From Pseudomonas sp. R84 (GTDB lineage Bacteria; Pseudomonadota; Gammaproteobacteria; Pseudomonadales; Pseudomonadaceae), in NCBI RefSeq assembly GCF_009834515.1, contig NZ_CP019426.1, forward strand, positions 6,279,501-6,343,500: a stretch of 64,000 bases of DNA, written 5' to 3'. Under the pieces are notes generated by a model. It was not told the origin of the DNA. It did no database searches and saw nothing but the letters and a program-made list of their open reading frames with translations. Of the stretch, positions 54,086 to 64,000 are shown piece by piece. A program made the translations under genes and the position numbers. Every line of letters begins with the position of its first letter. The first letter of the stretch is position 1.

Positions 54086-54943
54086 ATGTCCCTCTCCATC
54101 GTCCACAGTCGCGCCCAGATAGGCGTGGAAGCCCCCGCTGTCACCGTCGAAGTCCATCTGGCCAACGGTCTGCCGTCGCTGACCATGGTCGGCCTGCCCG
54201 AGGCGGCGGTGAAGGAGAGCAAGGATCGGGTGCGCAGTGCGATCATCAACTCCGGGCTGCAGTTTCCGGCGCGGCGGATCACCTTGAATCTGGCGCCGGC
54301 AGATTTGCCCAAGGATGGCGGGCGGTTTGATCTGGCGATTGCCCTGGGGATTCTGTCGGCGAGTGTGCAGGTGCCGTGTCTGACGCTGGATGATGTGGAA
54401 TGTCTGGGTGAGTTGGCGTTGTCCGGCGCAGTACGAGCGGTGCGTGGCGTGTTGCCGGCAGCGTTGGCGGCGCGCAAGGCGGGTCGTGCGTTGGTGGTGC
54501 CGCGGGCGAATGCCGAGGAGGCGTGTCTGGCCTCGGGGTTGAAGGTGTTTGCGGTGGATCATTTGCTGGAGGCGGTGGCGCATTTCAATGGGCATACGCC
54601 GGTTGAACCTTATGTCTCCGACGGGCTGATGCATGCCAGCAAGCCTTATCCCGACTTGAATGAAGTGCAGGGGCAAGTGGCGGCGAAACGGGCGTTGCTG
54701 ATTGCTGCTGCGGGCGCCCATAACTTGCTGTTCAGCGGGCCGCCTGGGACGGGTAAGACATTGTTGGCGAGTCGCCTGCCGGGGCTGTTGCCGCCGCTGG
54801 CCGAGAGTGAAGCACTGGAGGTGGCGGCGATCCAGTCAGTCGCCAGTGGCGCACCGCTGACCCATTGGCCGCAGCGCCCATTCCGTCAACCGCACCACTC
54901 CGCATCCGGGCCGGCACTGGTCGGTGGCAGTTGTGACAATTGA
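54086..54943 (+). pseudogene. comM: comM (yifB) 5' fragment, interrupted by an insertion
   Basis: ComM is a hexameric Mg-chelatase-like AAA+ helicase that extends branch migration during natural transformation, normally about 500 residues. The first 282 codons are intact: Lon-like domain (AVTVEVHLANGLPSLTMVGL, PADLPKDGGRFDLAIALGIL) and Walker A FSGPPGTGKTLLASRLPG. At HHSASGPALVGGS the family sequence stops and CDN-stop follows from foreign DNA that begins at 54932. The Walker B and sensor parts are missing, so the product cannot work. The ATG at 54086 follows AAGGAA. Confidence 0.95.
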
Positions 54944-54981
54944 AAATAAATGCAACTACACGAAAATAGATGCAACTGGAA
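54932..54981. repeat. Terminal repeats of a putative Tn7-like element
   Basis: The foreign DNA begins TGTGACAATTG and carries two near-identical copies GAAAATAAATGCAACT (54942-54957) and GAAAATAGATGCAACT (54962-54977), 20 bases apart. Repeated transposase-binding sites behind a TGT terminus are the layout of Tn7-like ends. A target duplication cannot be seen because the far end is outside the window. Confidence 0.6.
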
Positions 54982-55350
54982 CGACGTCTGGAGTGGCGAC
55001 TGAATTTCGCGCCAGTCCCCACAAAGTGCCATCGACGCCGATCTCCTTGTCCTGCTCAGCGACCCAACGGGGTGTCGGCGTAGGCTTGGTTTATAGCCAT
55101 AGGGAATTGAACTGAGCCTACTACACGGTTGTTCAGCCCCTCGTGAGTCGGATAAGCGAACGGCCGCTACTGGCCGAAAGCGGCCACAGGCTGGCTCCGA
55201 TGATGGATTGGATGTAGTAGCCCGCCTCCCCCCCAAATGTTTGGCTAAAGTCTCAAATCATCTGCGCGGCGTGGCAATTTTTAAGCATGCGATATCTAAG
55301 CAACTCTGCTGCGGCCGCATGAGCTAGGCTTTGCGGACCCCTCGTTGCCA
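54982..55350. other. Gene-free stretch after the element end
   Basis: No convincing coding frame. It holds an inverted repeat GGCCGCT/AGCGGCC (55162-55168 and 55179-55185) of a kind seen scattered in pseudomonads, and otherwise nothing I recognise. Confidence 0.5.
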
Positions 55351-55361
55351 GGATGGATCGC

Positions 55362-55580
55362 ATGCCAAATAACTCAGCTTCTAATATCGCCACTGCTGAC
55401 GCCCTGACATTGCTCCTGCACAACCAGCATGCACTGGCGGCGGCAATCGAGGAGGTCGCCGTTTGGCTTTCAGCGAATAGCGTGGCAGTGGTTGCAGAAA
55501 ACGCTGTGATGGCCATGGAGACCTTAGACACAAATGCAAAAGCGATCACAGATGCGATTATGCGGATACGGCAATCCTAA
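55362..55580 (+). CDS. Small unknown protein, helical
   Basis: A 72-residue Ala-rich protein (MPNNSASNIATADALTLLLH) that looks like a long helix, with heptads in ALAAAIEEVAVWLSANSVAV. The ATG at 55362 has AGGA eight bases upstream. An in-frame ATG at 55353 is also possible. I do not recognise a family. It is isolated within the inserted DNA, and codon use is unremarkable. Confidence 0.4.
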   Translation: MPNNSASNIATADALTLLLHNQHALAAAIEEVAVWLSANSVAVVAENAVMAMETLDTNAKAITDAIMRIRQS

Positions 55581-55587
55581 TTAAGCC

Positions 55588-55800
55588 TTTGCAGGCAGCA
55601 ATCGGTCAGAAGCAGACGTTTGGAACAGTAGAAACAACCCTGCCGCATCTCCCGCAAGCTCTAAACATCCTCGCAAGCATTGAGTCCACGGTCCTGCTGC
55701 GCGGGCAAAACGAACCGACAGACCGATGTGTTCGTAGCAGTGCAGGGTATGGTGCTTAAACCCGGTGGCGACAGGTACATCTATCACGCTTGAAACGCTG
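55588..55800. other. Gene-free stretch with degenerate intergenic sequence
   Basis: Contains GCAGCAATCGGTCAGAAGCA-type sequence of the kind that recurs between genes in Pseudomonas. No convincing gene on either strand. Confidence 0.4.
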
Positions 55801-55816
55801 GACGTTTAGTCCGATG

Positions 55817-56440
55817 TCACTGCGACTTTGCTGCCGTTTCAATGAGCCGAGCAACGGCTTTAGGGTTGGAGATCATCACCACGTGCGAACCGCCCTTGAG
55901 AACTACCGTCTCTCGGGCCTTTGCACGCTCGGCCATGAACGCCATCGCGTGTGGTGGGATGTTCTTGTCAGCGTCGCCATAGACCCACCAGGATGGAATG
56001 GATTTCCAGGCCGCTTGGCTAGCGACCTCGTTGAGTGCGATATCAGTGACTGGCCGCTGAGCAGCCGCCATCAATTTAGCGTTGGCGCTGGATACATCGG
56101 CAGCAAACTGGTCATGAAATTTGTCTTGCTGAATATAAAGATCGTTTCCGCCGCTTTTGAGCGCGACAGGTGCCGCCAAAGTTGAGCCTAACGTGCTGCC
56201 GGGAAACTTACCACTCAGCGCGACGGCACTTTCACCCACATCCGGGGCAAAGGCGGCGACGTAAAACAATGCTTTTACGTTGACCTGATTGTATGAGGCT
56301 TGGCTGATAACAGCGCCACCATAAGAGTGACCTACAAACACTGCCGGGCTCTTCAACCCGTAAAGTAGATCCGTAAGAGCCTGCGCATCGCCTTTGAGGC
56401 TGCGCAGAGGGTTCGAGGCGGCAACCACTGGGATGGCGAT
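55817..56440 (-). pseudogene. 5'-truncated alpha/beta hydrolase
   Basis: About 203 residues of an alpha/beta hydrolase like those annotated as esterases of the haloperoxidase/EstA-like group. The nucleophile elbow FVGHSYGGAVISQA, the acid in WWVYGDADKNIPPHAMAFMA and the His in LKGGSHVVMISNP are kept. The N-terminal beta strands with the oxyanion motif HGAF and the first 35-40 residues are absent. In the frame upstream (near 56438) a stop comes immediately before IAIPVVAASNP. The junction abuts the dctP fragment, so a rearrangement removed the start. Confidence 0.7.
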
Positions 56441-56458
56441 TTAGGCGCTCATGTGTGA

Positions 56459-56980
56459 AGGGAAATCGAGAAAAGCCAAACGCTGTTCACGTTCGATCAC
56501 ATCTGGGATAGCGGCTATCGAGTCATCACAACCAGTACCAAACAGATCACCAGTCCAGACGATCTGCTCTCCATGAAATTGCGGGTTCCGCCCCCCCCCA
56601 TCATCATGTCGATCTTTCGCTCGTTCGAGGCGGCACCGACGAGTATTAATTTCACCGAAGTTTATTCAGCACTCCAAACGCGTCTCGTCGAAGGCCAGGA
56701 GAACCCGCTAGCGATCATCTCCTCGACCAAGCTTTATGAGGTACAGAAGTATTGTTCGCTCACGAACCATGTTTGGGACGGATTCTGGATGCTGGGAAAC
56801 AGCAACATGCTCTTGGCTCAACAAGTTGGCGCGCAAGCAGTAAGAAATGCGGGAGCCCTTGATGCTTACAACCTGATGGCACCACTATTTGAGCAGTACC
56901 AAAAACAATTGGACGCCTCACAAAAGATCAGTCTCCAGTTGTTGCAAGAGCTTCAAAAACTGCAGAAAAAGCAGTCCTGA
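56459..56980 (+). pseudogene. Fragment of a TRAP-transporter substrate-binding protein (DctP) fused to unknown sequence
   Basis: From about 56462 the plus frame reads IWDSGYRVITTSTKQITSPD, then SMKLRVPPPPIIMSIFRSFE and LVEGQENPLAIISSTKLYEV up to VWDGFWMLGN (about 56797). This is the middle and late part of a DctP-type periplasmic protein. The start and signal peptide are missing. Downstream the frame continues into LAQQVGAQAVRNAGALDAYN and a Gln/Leu-rich coiled coil ending LQKLQKKQS at 56980, which does not resemble DctP. A 9-C run lies in it (56591-56599). It is most likely a chimera made by rearrangement. Confidence 0.65.
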
Positions 56981-57249
56981 TGTGAACAGGCTCAATAAAT
57001 TCAGATGATTGAGTCAGATCGTCATAGCAGAACGGACGAAGTCGTTGATCCCGAGCGTGATGGCATGAAGGCAGAGATGAACTTTGTGCATGTGACGCCA
57101 CGTCAAGAGCGGGGGCAATTGCTAATTATAGTTTTCTTATGCGGTTACATAAGAAGTGCCTGCGGTCATGGCAAGAATCCATCCCCCTGCCTACGCTGAG
57201 TGGGCGCGCGACGAACACGTGTATGTTGCGGCATAGAGGAAGGAATCCT

Positions 57250-59235
57250 GTGCTAATCGAATCTGTAGTCGTGTCTGGCTTCCGTTGCTTTGGTCGCGAC
57301 CCCATCTGCGTAACGATCTCTCCAAAAATAACGACTATTGTCGGGCCCAACGCGGCGGGAAAAACCGCTCTATTGCACGCTCTGTCAAAAATGTTCGGTG
57401 TGACGCGGGCACAACGCACGGTGCGTCGCTCGGACTTTCATCTAGGGCCGGACGACGACCCTACCGACCTTGAAATTAAGAACCTCTATATCGAGGTACT
57501 GATCGCCCTACCCGAACTAACGGATGGCTCGGCCACGCCAGAAACCATCGCGCCGTCTTTCCGGCATATGCTGATCGAGCGTACCGCTGGTGCCCCCGTC
57601 TGCCGTCTGCGACTTGATGCCCAGTGGGAGGACGATGGCACTGTCGAAGGCGAGGTCTCTCAGACCCTGCAATGGATTGACTCACTTGACGCAGAACCGA
57701 AAGACGACAAATGCCATCCCGTCTCTGTTGCAGATAGAGGGTTAATCCAACTCTATTACACGCCAGCTAGTCGTGACGCCGCAGCTCAGACACGTGCTAC
57801 TGCGGGAGCGTTAGCAGCTCGCCTGTTACGAGCGATCGAGTGGTCGCCGTCTACCGAAAACGCTGTTCAAGATGCCACGCAAAATCTCGCATCCGCTTTC
57901 GAAGGAGAGTCGGCAATTGCAGCAATCACCGGAGCACTGCAAACGCGATGGTCGGCACTTCATGATGAAGTTGTAGATACCAATCCACGACTCAGCCTGG
58001 TAAGTCGCAGGTTTGAAGAGGTCGTCAACAAGATCGCGGTTATGTTCGAACAGGGGCCGGACGGCCAAGAGCGTGGCATCGAGGCGCTCAGCGATGGTCA
58101 GCAATCGCTGTTCTACTTCGCCCTGGCTGCAGCGGTCTTCGATTTGGAAAGAGAAGCCGTAAAGGGATCGATTGAAGGCTTTAGGTGCGACGCTCTGCGA
58201 ATACCGGCGCTCACGATATTCGCATTGGAGGAACCAGAGAATCACCTATCACCTTACTTCCTCGCACGTATCATTCGTCAGGTTCGATCACTAACAAACG
58301 ATGGCAGTGCGCAAGCTATCGTTACCAGCCACTCTCCGGCCGTGCTAAGCCGCGTCGACCCGATGGAAGTTCGATACTGCCGCTGCGACCCACATACGCG
58401 CGTATCTTCAGTCAAGCGGATAGAGCTTCCGATCAATGATGCTGAGGCTAGTAAATTCGTTCGGGGTGCGATGTTGGCCTATCCAGAACTTTATTTTGCC
58501 CGATTTGTTTTGCTCGTTGAGGGAGACTCGGAAAGAATCGTTCTGCCCCAGCTTGCCGAGGCTATGGATTTGCTGATTGACCCTGCTTTCGTCGCCATTG
58601 TCCCATTGGGCGGACGTCACGTTCAGCATTTTTGGCGTTTGCTTAAGCACTTGGATATCCCTCATGCCACGTTGCTCGACCTTGATTTGGGGCGCGAAGG
58701 TGGTGGGTTTGGTCGAGTCAAGACAGCGATCGAAAAACTACTCCAGTTTGGCGCACCGAAAGCTCAGGTGCTGAAAATAGGACAAGGCATTTTGTCCGAT
58801 GCAGAGCTAGCCGAGATGCACACGTGGTCAGACACGCAAAATCACGGCAACCTTTTGGCATGGATCAACGGTAACTTGAGGCCTCAGGGAGTGTATTTTT
58901 CCTCACCTCTGGACTTAGATTTAGCGATGTTAGAGGCATTTCCCGCCGCTTATTCAGCCATCATTCCTGCAGGTGGCGGCCCACGCATGGCACCCGACAA
59001 AGCGGCCGAGGTAGTACTGGGCACTGCAGGCTCCGGCGTGAAATCGTATATCAGCCCTTTTGAAAACTATCTCCCGCTGTTCCCAAGCTACCGCTATCAC
59101 TTTCTGACCAACAGCAAGCCGGCTACTCATCTTGCAGCTCTGACGAAACTCGAAAAATCACAACTTGTGGAGAAGATGCCAGCAGTACTCAGCTCAGTGC
59201 TTAAGCATATTTCAGCATCTTTGAGACGAGACTGA
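57250..59235 (+). CDS. gajA: Gabija-like GajA, OLD-family ATPase with Toprim nuclease domain
   Basis: A 661-residue protein from GTG at 57250 (GAGGAAGGA upstream). The N-terminal ABC-like ATPase has Walker A GPNAAGKT (32-39), signature LSDGQQS (290-296), Walker B LTIFALEEPENHLSP (321-335) and H-loop TSHSP (359-363). The C-terminal Toprim has LLVEGDSERI with Glu424 and LLDLDLGREGGG with Asp477 and Asp479, all catalytic residues present. OLD class 2 enzymes paired with a UvrD helicase form the Gabija phage defence system, where GajA nicks DNA when nucleotide levels fall. It is about 80 residues longer than the B. cereus prototype. gajB follows after 2 bases. Confidence 0.85.
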   Translation: MLIESVVVSGFRCFGRDPICVTISPKITTIVGPNAAGKTALLHALSKMFGVTRAQRTVRRSDFHLGPDDDPTDLEIKNLYIEVLIALPELTDGSATPETIAPSFRHMLIERTAGAPVCRLRLDAQWEDDGTVEGEVSQTLQWIDSLDAEPKDDKCHPVSVADRGLIQLYYTPASRDAAAQTRATAGALAARLLRAIEWSPSTENAVQDATQNLASAFEGESAIAAITGALQTRWSALHDEVVDTNPRLSLVSRRFEEVVNKIAVMFEQGPDGQERGIEALSDGQQSLFYFALAAAVFDLEREAVKGSIEGFRCDALRIPALTIFALEEPENHLSPYFLARIIRQVRSLTNDGSAQAIVTSHSPAVLSRVDPMEVRYCRCDPHTRVSSVKRIELPINDAEASKFVRGAMLAYPELYFARFVLLVEGDSERIVLPQLAEAMDLLIDPAFVAIVPLGGRHVQHFWRLLKHLDIPHATLLDLDLGREGGGFGRVKTAIEKLLQFGAPKAQVLKIGQGILSDAELAEMHTWSDTQNHGNLLAWINGNLRPQGVYFSSPLDLDLAMLEAFPAAYSAIIPAGGGPRMAPDKAAEVVLGTAGSGVKSYISPFENYLPLFPSYRYHFLTNSKPATHLAALTKLEKSQLVEKMPAVLSSVLKHISASLRRD

Positions 59236-59237
59236 AC

Positions 59238-61142
59238 ATGACCTTATCATCGCGCAGAATCCGTCCGGAGGATTGGCAACCTGTAGGAGTAAGGTCACTC
59301 GAGGCAAACGCATTGGAGGTCGTGCGCTCACACGAAAACCGTTCCGTGATTGCAGGTCCTGGCGCGGGTAAAACGGAGTTGCTCGCACAGCGCGCCGCCT
59401 ACTTATTGCAAACCGGGGCGTCATCTTCGCCAAGACGTATTCTCGCGATAAGTTTCAAACGCGATGCAGCCTCTAATCTCGCGACTCGCGTGCGAAAACG
59501 CTGCCATCCTGACCATGCGAGCCGCCTGGACTCAATGACGTTTGACGCGTTTGCTAAGAGTTTGGTCGACCGTTTTGGCCAGTCACTGCCCGAATATTGG
59601 CGACCGCGCCCCGATTACGAAATGACTAGCTACTACGAGCGTGACTATAAGGACTTTCTTTACCAGGAGGTGGGCTTACCACCTGCGGGAATTGGCACAA
59701 GAGCTGACCTACGTGCAATTGGGCCAAAAACTTTTGAGCGCGTGTACCTGCTCGGTCAACTGCTGCCAATAAACACATGGTCATGCCCTTCCGTAGGCCA
59801 GTGGGCTGCGGATCGGTTCTGGCAGTCATCATTGCACGGAGGGGCCAAAAGCGTTCTGTCCTTCCCGATGATAGGCAGGCTCGCGGAGTTTCTGTTGCGC
59901 CTGAATCCCATGGCGCAGGAAGCGCTCCGACTTACCTATTCGCACTTGTTCATGGACGAGTTTCAAGACACAACACAGGTTCAATACGATCTTGTGAGCA
60001 CAATTTTCCGCGGGACGAGCACTGTAATTACCGCTGTCGGCGACAACAAACAGCAAATCATGCGCTGGGCGATGGCAATGGATGACCCATTCTCCGAATT
60101 CGACGCAGATTTCGACGCCGAGCGGACATCTCTCTATAACAACTACCGTTCCTCTCCCGATCTGGTAAGAATTCAGCACGTGTTAGCTCAGGCATTGGAT
60201 GCGAAAGCTGTCGCACCCATTTCTCAGACAGTGGGCACGATAATCGGAGAAAGCTGCTCTATCTTCGACTTTCCGAGCCCGCAAAAAGAAGCACGCGGTC
60301 TAGCTGCATCTATCGCATCAAATATCGCTGCGGGCAAGCTTACACCACGAGATTTCGTTCTCCTTGTTCGCCAAAAAGCAGGAGATTATGCCGAGCTTTT
60401 ACAGCCAGCTTTTGGTGCCCAAGGACTGAGCTTACGAAACGAGGCTGGGGTGATCGGTACAATAATGCTGCAGGAGTTACTTGTCGAAGACGTTTCGATA
60501 CTTATGGTTTCGTTACTGCGCTTGGCCATGACACCTCGGGCAGGACGCTATTGGAGCGAATGCCAAAGCGAGATGGCAGCGCTTAGAGGTGTCGCATCCG
60601 ACGACGAAATCGGACACGCCAAACTCTCACGCGAATTGGACGCGTATGCGATATGGCTTGGCGAAAACCGATCAATACCTCCAACAACAACGCAAGCTGC
60701 GCGAGCGCTCCTTGATGAGATTCTGAACTTCATTGGGCTTGAACACCTCAAGAGTCGCCACCAAACTTACGCGCAGGGAGAATGGCTCGAAAAAGTCATT
60801 GATTCAGCGGCGACCCATTTATACACCTCATCCATTCAATGCGGAGATTGGATCTCAACACTTGATACTTACGAAGGCGTCAATGCTATTCCTCTGATGA
60901 CCATTCACAAAAGCAAAGGACTCGAGTATCACACTGTCATCTTCATTGGCCTTGATGATGGTGCCTGGTGGAGCTTTTCTAACGATGAAATCGAAGCTAC
61001 CGCTGGTTTTTTCGTCGCGTTCACCCGTGCTAAGCAGCGTGTGGTTTTCACATACTGCGCCACTCGCGGAGATCGTACAAAAATTGCAACCCTGTATAAC
61101 TTACTTAGGGAAGCGGGTGTCCAAATAACAGAGGCAATCTAG
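59238..61142 (+). CDS. gajB: Gabija-like GajB, UvrD/Rep-family helicase
   Basis: A 634-residue superfamily 1 helicase. Motifs in order are Walker A AGPGAGKT (39-46), Ia ILAISFKRDAASNLATRV, Walker B FMDEFQDTTQ (Asp240, Glu241), III AVGDNKQQIMRW, IV NNYRSSPDL, V TIHKSKGLEYHTVIFIGLDD and VI FVAFTRAKQRVVF, so all are intact. In Gabija, GajB senses DNA ends or consumes ATP and activates GajA. It lies 2 bases after gajA and must be co-translated. At 634 residues it is longer than the B. cereus GajB (494). Codon and GC content are lower than in the core genes. Confidence 0.85.
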   Translation: MTLSSRRIRPEDWQPVGVRSLEANALEVVRSHENRSVIAGPGAGKTELLAQRAAYLLQTGASSSPRRILAISFKRDAASNLATRVRKRCHPDHASRLDSMTFDAFAKSLVDRFGQSLPEYWRPRPDYEMTSYYERDYKDFLYQEVGLPPAGIGTRADLRAIGPKTFERVYLLGQLLPINTWSCPSVGQWAADRFWQSSLHGGAKSVLSFPMIGRLAEFLLRLNPMAQEALRLTYSHLFMDEFQDTTQVQYDLVSTIFRGTSTVITAVGDNKQQIMRWAMAMDDPFSEFDADFDAERTSLYNNYRSSPDLVRIQHVLAQALDAKAVAPISQTVGTIIGESCSIFDFPSPQKEARGLAASIASNIAAGKLTPRDFVLLVRQKAGDYAELLQPAFGAQGLSLRNEAGVIGTIMLQELLVEDVSILMVSLLRLAMTPRAGRYWSECQSEMAALRGVASDDEIGHAKLSRELDAYAIWLGENRSIPPTTTQAARALLDEILNFIGLEHLKSRHQTYAQGEWLEKVIDSAATHLYTSSIQCGDWISTLDTYEGVNAIPLMTIHKSKGLEYHTVIFIGLDDGAWWSFSNDEIEATAGFFVAFTRAKQRVVFTYCATRGDRTKIATLYNLLREAGVQITEAI

Positions 61143-61328
61143 CTGTTCGGAAGAGCGCGCAATGGCTTAAAAATTTGTGAGCTTTGAGCAAGTTTCTACT
61201 TGTCAGCGTTGATGCTTGCATGCATTTTTGATATGAAGAAGGTCAAGGGGACTGACAAAGGATTCAATCTCTACGCACGAGCCTTCCGTTACCAATTTTC
61301 AACATCCAATGATCAAAAGGAGCGACTT

Positions 61329-61643
61329 ATGCTGCACGTAATGCTGACTCTCGATTTGTCTCAAGCTGAGCCAGAGCGCAATGATTTCTACAAACACCTT
61401 CTAGAGCTTGGGTGGGAAAAGTTTAGCGACGTCGATACAGTATGGCGGCGAGAGTTTCCAGGTAGGCCTACCGATGACACGACCGCATGCGGCACAGCAG
61501 GCGACATTGGAGAAGAGCTGACGGCAGCGGCGGAAAGGTTTCGGCCGAAACAGATCAGCTACGTGGCACAAATAGGAAACCATCCCGCTTACGCTAGGGT
61601 GGTGAGGAATGAAACGAATAGATACGCCGTTTACGAGGCATGA
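61329..61643 (+). CDS. Small protein downstream of the gaj genes
   Basis: A 104-residue protein that I do not recognise with certainty. It starts at ATG 61329 after AAGGAG, 186 bp past gajB. The opening MLHVMLTLDLSQAEPERNDF, then FYKHLLELGWEKFSDVDTVW, looks like a ferredoxin-like fold of the Cas2/GhoS type. Open codons upstream to 61200 are not needed. Position suggests it is part of the defence module (an accessory or antitoxin-like factor), but this is inference. Confidence 0.5.
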   Translation: MLHVMLTLDLSQAEPERNDFYKHLLELGWEKFSDVDTVWRREFPGRPTDDTTACGTAGDIGEELTAAAERFRPKQISYVAQIGNHPAYARVVRNETNRYAVYEA

Positions 61644-61790
61644 ATCGCGCCGGATTTTCTCGACACTCTCCAGGCTCGCTGCTTAGCCCTTTTCAAATTC
61701 TACTGGTAATAGCTGATTGTTGATGCCGTGGCGTCGTTTTGGGTTGCAAAACATCTTGATTTATACGAGGTAGCCTACTCGCTAAGGCTG

Positions 61791-62033
61791 CTATTGGAGA
61801 ACGTAGACCCTGACACCGTCTGATACTTCTGTCGTTTTTGTTAAGCTCCCGCCAGTGTAGCCATGCTTCCTTAAAAAGTTCGTATCGTCACAGCTCCACT
61901 CTTCTATGATGGTGGAACTGATACCCACACCACACTGGTCTGTAACTCGACCATTATAATTCAGTTTCTCAATGATTTCTTTTAGCTCCTCAGTTTCAAG
62001 AGATTCAAGCCACTCAATATTTGTTTGCATCAT
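61791..62033 (-). CDS. Small unknown acidic protein
   Basis: An 80-residue protein (MMQTNIEWLESLETEELKEI), two cysteines, no recognised family. Start at 62033 or 62030 (two consecutive ATG). It is transcribed opposite to the gaj operon and lies in the same orientation as the minus-strand module at the right end. Confidence 0.4.
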   Translation of the reverse strand: MMQTNIEWLESLETEELKEIIEKLNYNGRVTDQCGVGISSTIIEEWSCDDTNFLRKHGYTGGSLTKTTEVSDGVRVYVLQ

Positions 62034-62299
62034 ATTATGAACATCCTGTTGGCTGGATCGAAGTCATACTCAACTTGCTGCCGTAACCTTAGCTGAAAAC
62101 CTGGGGCGGCACATGACTTACTGGCCGCTGCTGACCATTCGCCATCAACTGATCATCGCATTTTTTCTGATCGTTTGAGCTATCGCTCGATGGATGCCAA
62201 GGCGCACACCGATGAAGTGGTGTAAGCAGTATTGCCGAGGCGGGGTGCTTGCTGGTTAGCGCGGTAGGTAGCAAGTGCCAAACGCTTGGAACGTCCCTT
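62034..62299. other. Gene-free stretch
   Basis: No recognisable gene on either strand. A 61-codon minus-strand frame here has no family features and is probably chance. Confidence 0.5.
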
Positions 62300-62896
62300 T
62301 TAGGTAGGCAGGAGCTTCAGCTCCATCCTATCGATCAAAGCCATTTGAGCAGCCAACCGTGCTGCCTGATCTTCAAGCGAGAGTTCTTCTGAATTACCAA
62401 AGAAGTCTGTCGCGAAGATATCGGCATGAAAATCCATGGCTTCGCTCGCTGTGTCATACACCTTAAAGGCTTGACTACCACAGTCATAGAATACTTCTCG
62501 CGCATCGCCAGTCCTGACAATCGCAATGCCCGCCGCTTTTTTCTTGCCGCGCGCACCTTTGCCCCGACCAGTAAAGCTGGCCGCACAAAACTTCATGACG
62601 TGAGCTTCCCCGGACTCAACCTTACTCAACCGAGTAACTGACATCCCTTGTGCGTATGCATGAGCGACGGTGTCGGGAGAGAGGGTACCGTCTTCAAGCA
62701 AGTGATAAGGATGACAAGCGCAGGATGCTACCATCTCATCGTTAAGGACTACGCCTGGCGAATGAGTGGTAGTCGAATGTGTCTCTGCATTGCACTCTGT
62801 GCATGTCAGTACCTTAGAAAGCTTAGCGGCTGCCGCTTGGCTTCCCAGTGAACTAGCGAAGACCGCTTGGCAATTCGGACAAATGAGCTGTGACAT
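62300..62896 (-). CDS. Zinc-ribbon protein of unknown function
   Basis: A 198-residue protein with an N-terminal zinc ribbon made of CPNC (6-9) and CTEC (31-34) and a third Cys pair CACH near residue 60. The C-terminal part has a Gly/Lys-rich basic stretch (TGRGKGARGKKKAAGIAIVR), and nothing else recognisable. It is the last gene of a minus-strand set, and its start lies 44 bp inside the preceding gene, so translation is coupled. A nucleic-acid-binding role is possible but not shown. Confidence 0.6.
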   Translation of the reverse strand: MSQLICPNCQAVFASSLGSQAAAAKLSKVLTCTECNAETHSTTTHSPGVVLNDEMVASCACHPYHLLEDGTLSPDTVAHAYAQGMSVTRLSKVESGEAHVMKFCAASFTGRGKGARGKKKAAGIAIVRTGDAREVFYDCGSQAFKVYDTASEAMDFHADIFATDFFGNSEELSLEDQAARLAAQMALIDRMELKLLPT

Positions 62897-63629
62897 CTTC
62901 CCTGAAACTCTCAGTCAGAAAATTTTGTAGTTCTTGGGGTAACTGCCTTACAAAGCAGTTCATGGTGAGAATCGGTTTACGATTCACCAAGATAATAGCT
63001 GAGTATTGATCGCTCCCTTTGAATTTCAAAGTAGCAAATCGCGATTCATCTTTCCATATCACAGAAACCGCGCCGTTATTACTCAAAGTCAAACTTGGCC
63101 TTGAAATAGAAAGCCCACGAACCTGATTCAATAAAAGTCTAACAGCTTGTACAGTACAGGCATCAGCAGGCTGACCACCCATTCCGTCCCAATCAGACTC
63201 TTCATTTTCAAAATCATCCAGACGTACGAAAGCATTATCATAGTCAGGATAGTTGCGAGCCCCAACTATCTGAGCATCAATAAGCAAAGCCGAAATTTTG
63301 GATACTACAGATTCATGGCTGTATCGAGCCATCTTCAACATTACTTGAACACTTGGCTCTTCTGTCGGAAAAGATGGCCAGTCGTCCAAAAAACTTCTTG
63401 CCTTAGTCAAAAATGCCACGGCTTCCGACGGGACTGCGCCAAAAAAACCGCTACCTCCAGCGCACGGAAAAGATGGAAAAAATCGAGTGTTGGGAGCTCG
63501 TCCTTTAAAAGCTGAAACCAGCTCCAATTCCGAATGGTTGTAAAAACAATCACGCTCAATGTTGTCCTCTTTGGCCAATCGGACAAGGAGAGCTTGATTA
63601 ACAACAAAATCCTGAGTGCTAGGATGCAT
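62853..63629 (-). CDS. Unknown protein, middle gene of the minus-strand module
   Basis: A 258-residue protein from ATG 63629 (GAAGGTGAC upstream), with no recognised domain. Visible features are a conserved-looking DYDNAFVRLDDFENEESDWD segment around residue 140, a VRLLLNQVRGLSISRPSLTL region and a C-terminal strand-rich part (FATLKFKGSDQYSAIILVNR). It overlaps the upstream gene by 11 bp and the downstream zinc-ribbon gene by 44 bp. The DNA is AT-rich for Pseudomonas, suggesting recent transfer. Confidence 0.55.
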   Translation of the reverse strand: MHPSTQDFVVNQALLVRLAKEDNIERDCFYNHSELELVSAFKGRAPNTRFFPSFPCAGGSGFFGAVPSEAVAFLTKARSFLDDWPSFPTEEPSVQVMLKMARYSHESVVSKISALLIDAQIVGARNYPDYDNAFVRLDDFENEESDWDGMGGQPADACTVQAVRLLLNQVRGLSISRPSLTLSNNGAVSVIWKDESRFATLKFKGSDQYSAIILVNRKPILTMNCFVRQLPQELQNFLTESFREDVTAHLSELPSGLR

Positions 63630-64000
63630 AATTGTCACCTTCTGGCACTAAGCCGAAAAACTCCCTAGCATCTTCGCTCAGGAGAGAGGCAACTATCATT
63701 TTATTCTTCTCATGCAAATCATCATATGACTTGCGAAGTAGCTCAGCAGCTATCGGTGAAGGATCACCAAAAATCAAACGATGCAAACAGCTAATCACAA
63801 GCTTATCTTTATCGTTATTCACTGGAGAGTGTAACAAGTTAAAGGTTGTTTTAATCGCCGTACCATTAGCAAACGGCTCATAAAATGAATGCTCAAACCG
63901 CCAATATGAAGCACCCTTAAATATCGACATCGGTATCCAATCACTCTGATTATTCAATATCTCATCAAAGCGAAGCTCGCGATCGAATTTAAAACTTGTT
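63619..64000 (-). CDS. Unknown protein, C-terminal part only (runs off window)
   Basis: The frame stays open to the window edge, so only the last 126 or so residues are seen (up to LVPEGDNYAS). The closing segment SYDDLHEKNKMIVASLLSED and AREFFG, and an upstream strand FEHSFYEPFANGTAIKTTFN, resemble the C-terminus of TIGR04255-type proteins, but this match is weak. It is the first visible gene of the overlapping minus-strand module. A TTG at 63957 could be mistaken for its start. Confidence 0.55.
   Translation of the reverse strand, partial: TSFKFDRELRFDEILNNQSDWIPMSIFKGASYWRFEHSFYEPFANGTAIKTTFNLLHSPVNNDKDKLVISCLHRLIFGDPSPIAAELLRKSYDDLHEKNKMIVASLLSEDAREFFGLVPEGDNYAS

Follow-up and report, generated by a model that had tools for sequence, protein, structure and literature searches.

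A Tn7-like transposon of the Tn6022 family with phage-defence cargo, very probably inserted in comM of Pseudomonas sp. R84

The protein TnsF directs the Tn6022 family of Tn7-like transposons to the gene comM, and transposition of the Acinetobacter johnsonii element AjTn6022 to this gene depends on TnsF, as described in PMC10293859. Experiments in the same source show that TnsF of AjTn6022 binds the DNA of comM, that 40-50 bp to each side of the insertion point are required, with a 10-bp stretch in the Walker B codons being indispensable, and that TniQ connects TnsF with the transposase. TnsF is presented there as having several zinc fingers in its first 199 residues, followed by a tyrosine-recombinase-like part without a catalytic chamber. 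The AbaR islands of Acinetobacter baumannii likewise have comM as target and inactivate it; in this species, removal of AbaR with restoration of comM has been reported to give higher transformation (PMC7508600), and loss of comM has been tied to low transformability (PMC11472951). A combination of a TnsF-like selector with comM as target is also reported for the Tsy elements (ZooTsy, PMC10293859). Tn7-like transposons with defence cargo, including Gabija and sirtuin-type genes, are the subject of PMC8649781, in the main text of which comM does not occur as a whole word.

Here we analysed a stretch of 64,000 nucleotides (the window) from Pseudomonas sp. R84, corresponding to G000:C1:6279501-6343500 of the genome, which is a single contig of 6,601,805 bases. 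The locus resembles AjTn6022 in its genes (tnsA, tnsB, tnsC, a short tniQ, a candidate tnsF and a tnsE-like gene on the opposite strand) and in the insertion in comM, which has the fixed orientation of the Tn6022 family and lies next to the Walker B codons; 369 amino acids are given for TniQ and 498 for TnsF of this family (PMC10293859), compared to 372 and 523 here. It differs from AjTn6022 in genus and cargo. The comM target and the probable inactivation of this gene are shared with the AbaR islands, whereas the cargo of the latter is antibiotic resistance and the one found here is anti-phage. TnsF-like selector and target are as in the Tsy elements, and Gabija and sirtuin-type cargo are both present here too.

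Both junctions with their GCAGT duplication, the empty sites in sister genomes, the tns domains, the homologues of TnsF and TnsE, the ten out of ten junctions measured at one position and the published TnsF tests leave us almost certain that a Tn7-like transposon of the Tn6022 family has inserted into comM after codon 282; its mechanism, activity and phenotype we infer. An earlier note on this DNA had proposed that comM is split by a Tn7-like insertion of the same kind as the AbaR/Tn6022 elements, with cargo against phages, and the junctions, the tns genes and Gabija support this proposal. The case is less novel than had been hoped, as comM targeting via TnsF has already been published (PMC10293859) and other genomes of the genus carry the insertion too. 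Less expected for a specialist may be this recurrence in the genus, the fossil border inside the island and the elements without detectable TnsF at the same place. No paper on comM-targeting Tn7-like elements of Pseudomonas was among those listed in literature searches, and we do not claim that they are absent from print.

The split comM gene and the ends of the insert

The 5' part of comM (54086..54931, plus strand) comprises codons 1-282, retaining Walker A and lacking Walker B and the C-terminal domain. Its frame is open from 54086 to 54931, then runs into TGTGACAATTG and stops after three further codons. The 3' half is located outside the window, from G000:C1:6363278 on, 28.8 kb downstream of the 5' half. 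Joining both flanks by script yields an uninterrupted ComM of 497 amino acids, which carries a serine at the position where others have a third glycine. All four sister genomes examined (L125-L128) have an empty comM site, at which the flanks overlap by 4, 4, 5 and 4 bases and GCAGT is present once.

The insert extends from window position 54932 (G000:C1:6334432) to G000:C1:6363277 and is 28,846 bp long, with a G+C content of 52.7% against 59.3% in the downstream flank. Only its left part (54932..64000) is in the window; the tns genes sit at the far end. A 5-bp target duplication, GCAGT, flanks the insert, with the left copy at 54927..54931 (plus strand) and the right copy at G000:C1:6363278-6363282. 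The left end (54932..54977, plus strand) consists of TGTGACA and two 16-bp repeats resembling TnsB sites (54942-54957 and 54962-54977), which are identical in 15 of 16 bases and spaced 20 bp start to start. TGTGACA is found at both ends of the element, and the mirror end, TGTGACATTCG, shares 9 of 11 bases with the left end. A search of both strands of the whole element for the 12-base core AATARATGCAAC gave five sites matching in 11 or 12 bases, two at the left and three at the right, all of them in the terminal 150 bp and pointing inward; only the three at the right end are independent, because the consensus was derived from the two left sites. An earlier repeat count (2 matches against 0.69 expected, a value reached in 19 of 100 shuffles) was weak and circular and was set aside. 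TGT...ACA ends, arrays of TnsB-type sites and a 5-bp target duplication, all present here, are hallmarks of Tn7-like elements.

The earlier note had described the intact frame up to 54931, the foreign DNA following it and the two repeats 20 bp apart, and each of these could be confirmed. As a check, it had suggested looking beyond the window for the 3' half of comM, an inverted end with repeats, a 5-bp direct duplication next to both ends and tnsABC/tniAB-like genes. All of these were found: the inverted end has three inward core sites, and tnsA, tnsB, tnsC and tniQ adjoin it.

The ComM C-terminal family (PF13335) has a single match in the genome, which is the broken copy (G000:C1:6363637-6363915, about 29 kb downstream). 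When the N-terminal half of ComM was compared with 38 genomes, the own one included, 35 gave one match each, located in an open frame of 497 codons or more; the frame in R84 has 334, and in two genomes (G014 and G024) the match was in two pieces. With its break ahead of Walker B and no C-terminal domain, ComM is most likely dead, and as the only PF13335 match is the broken copy, loss of ComM function in the strain is a fair conclusion from the sequence of the gene. The ComEC channel family is present in the genome. With its single copy of comM broken, the strain is most likely unable to integrate transforming DNA with the help of ComM. Breaking ComM while adding phage defence would be a trade of one route for gaining DNA against protection. 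Furthermore, disruption of ComM may guard the element from removal by transformation, an idea that is discussed for A. baumannii in PMC11472951.

A probable decayed comM border within the island

The island seems to retain, 10.7 kb in from its left end, a decayed left border of a further comM insertion (G000:C1:6345086-6345132, L003 11687-11733, beyond the window). This stretch of 47 bp consists of 33 bases resembling the last 33 of the comM 5' half, followed by TGTGACGAAAAAGG. Compared with the own left junction it matches in 33 of 39 bases with a score of 48, while neither shuffling the comM piece 60 times nor testing 50 actual host pieces of 310 bp gave more than 33; another piece of comM (from base 200 of the gene) scored 34, just above these controls. 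The exact match of 16 bp between the element and comM (40 shuffles: mean 12.0, largest 14) is part of the same fossil junction.

Apart from itself, the fossil is matched best in the 298 genomes of the genus by a left junction in G084, that of its comM element (44 bases at 86%). This match extends 11-12 bases into the end of that element, TGGGACAAAAAG, and the left junction in G025 is similar. The search gave 13 matching places in 12 genomes, one being the query itself, ten lying at the comM site (by sequence or position) and two being unfetched. The element in G084 had appeared to be shifted, with comM starting from residue 270; this was an alignment artefact, and the flanks show the same site with a GCAGT duplication.

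The remnant of an IS66 element ends 0-3 bases from the start of the fossil stretch. It is 87.0-89.7% identical to ten listed of 113 matching plasmid records, some of which are annotated as ISPpu14 family. That the fossil stretch is a normal part of IS66 was considered and rejected, since a query of 121 bases found no plasmid match at E up to 1 and ten of the 13 places matched in the genus lie at the comM site.

With this second, decayed comM/transposon junction, fused to the IS66 remnant, in its interior, the island has a mosaic history. The fossil points either to a previous occupant of comM or to two comM elements having recombined, and our guess is that the border was brought inside by such recombination via shared IS66 or tns sequence. 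An alternative would be that the island itself was built at comM by recombination of two comM-inserted elements, the left part coming from one and the right part from the other. The decayed comM flank and transposon end, so close to the IS66 remnant and best matched by the left junction in G084, speak for this. However, the outer ends belong together: the closest relative, G272 (92% identity in TnsB), has left and right ends of the same kind as the own element. In addition, a composite that later moved as one piece would leave an identical trace. We consider an assembly at comM from two elements possible and somewhat doubtful. The preferred reading is still the insertion of a Tn6022-family transposon after codon 282.

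Transposition genes, target selection and cargo

On the minus strand, from the right end inward, the element encodes TnsA (222 amino acids), TnsB (639), TnsC (297), TniQ (372) and a protein of 523 amino acids, in overlapping frames. A Pfam scan of 25 proteins from the element plus both ComM halves (27 in all) gave matches over the cut-off to Tn7_TnsA-like_N (60.1 bits), Mu-transpos_C (26.9), TniB (201.8) and TniQ (57.8); the rve core of TnsB (19.2) and the C-terminal domain of TnsA (16.8) stayed under the cut-off. The 523-aa protein, as well as a protein of 600 amino acids on the plus strand beyond it, matched nothing in Pfam or NCBIfam, and comparing their sequences with those of solved structures was uninformative.

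By position and homology, the 523-aa protein matches TnsF. It is 38-80% identical to eight aligned relatives, has a cysteine-rich N-terminus in which many cysteines are invariant across nine aligned rows, and shows 35% identity to the proteins at the same position in four comM-inserted Acinetobacter loci, a figure that refers to these loci and not to the AjTn6022 protein. A degenerate recombinase fold of this TnsF candidate rests on homology and position. The 600-aa protein is TnsE-like: its position and the published description would fit a TnsE of the Tn6022 type, the comparison being with the description and not with a published TnsE sequence. Its relatives share the arrangement and are 26-53% identical over nine rows, and of 18 named loci in which a tnsE-like gene is visible, 17 have it opposite to tnsF, the exception being L096 with both on the same strand.

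By analogy with AjTn6022, the element in which targeting was tested, TnsF would bind the Walker B stretch of comM (codons 297-302, taken from the joined comM sequence), which in the empty site lies about 42 bp downstream of the insertion point, and would pass the site to TniQ and TnsC. TnsA and TnsB would excise the element and join it with a 5-bp stagger, the tnsA end facing the 3' half of comM. Given the TnsE-like gene on the opposite strand, the element may have another route as well, one into conjugating plasmids. An Acinetobacter plasmid (L109, NZ_CP125670.1) carries a TnsABC-TniQ-TnsF element with no comM adjoining, as a TnsE-type route would give; the TnsF gene of this element matches in two separate pieces.

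The target region is shared with the Tsy elements in the published work (PMC10293859), and one could ask whether a tyrosine-recombinase transposon of this kind with a TnsF-like protein, or another integrase island, has split comM. Tsy elements are moved by a tyrosine recombinase (plus an HTH gene) and do so without tnsABC (PMC10293859). Here, in contrast, tnsABC-tniQ lies beside the end, the ends carry TnsB-site arrays and a 5-bp duplication, and none of the 25 reading frames of the element scanned with Pfam has a tyrosine or serine recombinase domain, so that we regard this explanation as already refuted and its probability as negligible.

The cargo in the window begins with an alpha/beta hydrolase reading frame, probably a fragment (55817..56428, minus strand), and a fragment of a gene for a DctP-type solute-binding protein (56573..56980, plus strand; profile positions 138-220 of 286). 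The pieces of these two genes and of the IS66 element show that the cargo is decayed in places. Downstream, a Gabija system is encoded on the plus strand, in which GajA with its OLD-like TOPRIM (57250..59235; PDLC00090, 803.1 bits) adjoins GajB, a UvrD-like helicase (59238..61142; PDLC00103, 745.5 bits). The frame of GajA is open from 57139, and its start at 57250 was placed at the beginning of the profile match. Four open frames follow: one of 147 amino acids (61200..61643, plus strand) without a Pfam or PADLOC match, one of 198 (62300..62896, minus strand) without a Pfam match, one of 261 (62853..63638, minus strand) and the 3' part of one of 280 that runs beyond the window end (63619..64000, minus strand), the latter two without a match in Pfam or NCBIfam.

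Defence-like cargo also includes a protein of the TIR/SEFIR type (TIR_2, 39.5 bits; bSEFIR model, 38.1 bits), one that matches SIR2_2 (36.9 bits, with weak PADLOC matches only) and an adenine methylase (MTase_II, 74.1 bits). Three adjoining genes outside the window (L005 3924-7775), likewise defence-like, match CARF6 (189.9 bits), an ORC-CDC6-like ATPase (297.4 bits) and PRTase-CE (147.8 bits). No Cas10 palm match in the genome exceeds the family cut-off of 27, two weak ones scoring 26.6 and 23.2 bits. No resistance gene was noticed in the Pfam scan of the 25 reading frames.

A CRISPR-associated transposon with a guide RNA aimed at comM would agree with the 16-bp exact match, with the CARF model hit and with the report in the review PMC11406308 that I-B1 elements acquired comM as guide-RNA target, but the 25 reading frames scanned contain no Cas effector domain and the 16 bp are part of the 47-bp comM/transposon-end junction beside the IS66 remnant, which makes this explanation extremely improbable.

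Other elements at the same comM site

The comM route of the Acinetobacter resistance islands recurs in Pseudomonas, in R84 with anti-phage cargo. Among 298 genomes of the genus, relatives of TnsB (E up to 1e-20) are present in 72 and relatives of TnsF (E up to 1e-10) in 15. Thirteen of these 15, the own genome included, have a right junction at the codon-282 position; of the remaining two, one (G236) shows the left junction only and the other (G136) is a draft. Twelve of the 13 come from the 30 TnsB loci that were fetched and one is G121 (L135). comM sequence was present in 15 of the fetched loci: the 12 with the right junction, all TnsF genomes, plus G118 and G149, which are at most 2 bp off and have no detectable TnsF, and G280 (L030/L139), where the element lies elsewhere in comM.

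Scanning the genomes of named species with the TnsF alignment gave 43 loci, several of them from the same genomes as in the sample above, so that the two samples overlap. The 3' part of comM is on the tnsA side in 32 of the 43, including four of the five Acinetobacter loci; the fifth is on a plasmid. No comM was found beside the tns genes in the other 11; several of these are short contigs, with the exception of at least four (L087-L089 and L108). Where the right junction was compared, it lies 5 bp before the same serine codon in 24 of 27 cases, the others being G118, G149 and L111 (Massilia, with another codon there). The right end is 17 bases before the same proline codon in all ten TnsF-type junctions measured, from the own strain, Pseudomonas and Acinetobacter.

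The two neighbours without TnsF are Tn7-like elements as well. In G118 (L130 and L068) the element has 14,936 bp and a GGTGG duplication and is inserted 1 bp upstream of the codon-282 position; in G149 (L131 and L069) it has 31,388 bp and a GGCAG duplication and lies 2 bp downstream, both offsets being measured from the shared proline codon. TnsB identity is 33-34% for these elements, and their TniQ proteins have 339 (G118) and 378 (G149) amino acids. In the four loci covering both elements, no frame of 50 amino acids or more was hit by a TnsF profile of 16 sequences (E up to 0.01); the same profile recovered TnsF in nine of 15 other loci, three of which had supplied rows of the profile. These elements would need a comM selector that is not yet described, perhaps their own TniQ alone. 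A match to comM of the kind a guide RNA would have, sought as exact matches of the element to the 300 bp of comM to the left and right of the site and compared with 40 shuffled targets each, was at chance level (G118: 11 bp, shuffle mean 12.0, largest 14; G149: 12 bp, mean 12.7, largest 16). The TnsB of G149 is matched in seven of 390 genomes of the order (E up to 1e-60), in no case with more than 40% identity; G000 (the own genome), G136 and G280 are three of the seven. Since close kin of this element are rare in the 390-genome sample, the repeated use of the site without TnsF rests on two cases.

Taking these neighbours and the fossil border together, we tentatively propose, at close to even confidence, that comM offers, around codon 282, a dock that can be used repeatedly, both by TnsF-guided Tn6022 elements and by Tn7-like elements without detectable TnsF such as those in G118 and G149. 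The island of R84 would then be a palimpsest retaining the border of an earlier occupant, with successive occupants exchanging defence cargo. The fossil junction and the TnsF-less neighbours make the repeated choice of one spot by different machinery a testable proposition.

A similar-looking block, recognised by eye, is present in two TnsF elements (L065 and L063, in G121 and G136) and in the TnsF-less element of G149 (L131 8978-12678), where it contains a gene matching DUF5131 and a neighbour weakly matching a GMT-like wHTH domain. This cargo block may be shared between different comM elements.

Insertions at other places of comM were also seen. In G280:C6 (L139/L030), a Tn7-like element borders comM from near the GGRFDLAIALGIL stretch, with comM continuing beyond codon 282, and thus occupies a different place. 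In G014 (L132, G014:C1:161500-174500) and G024 (L133, G024:C63:41000-52000), comM is split near residue 215, beside Walker A, by inserts of about 7-9 kb. The insert in G014 carries a large serine recombinase and a DprA-family gene, and G024 has both the split at residue 215 and a Tn6022-type insertion at codon 282.
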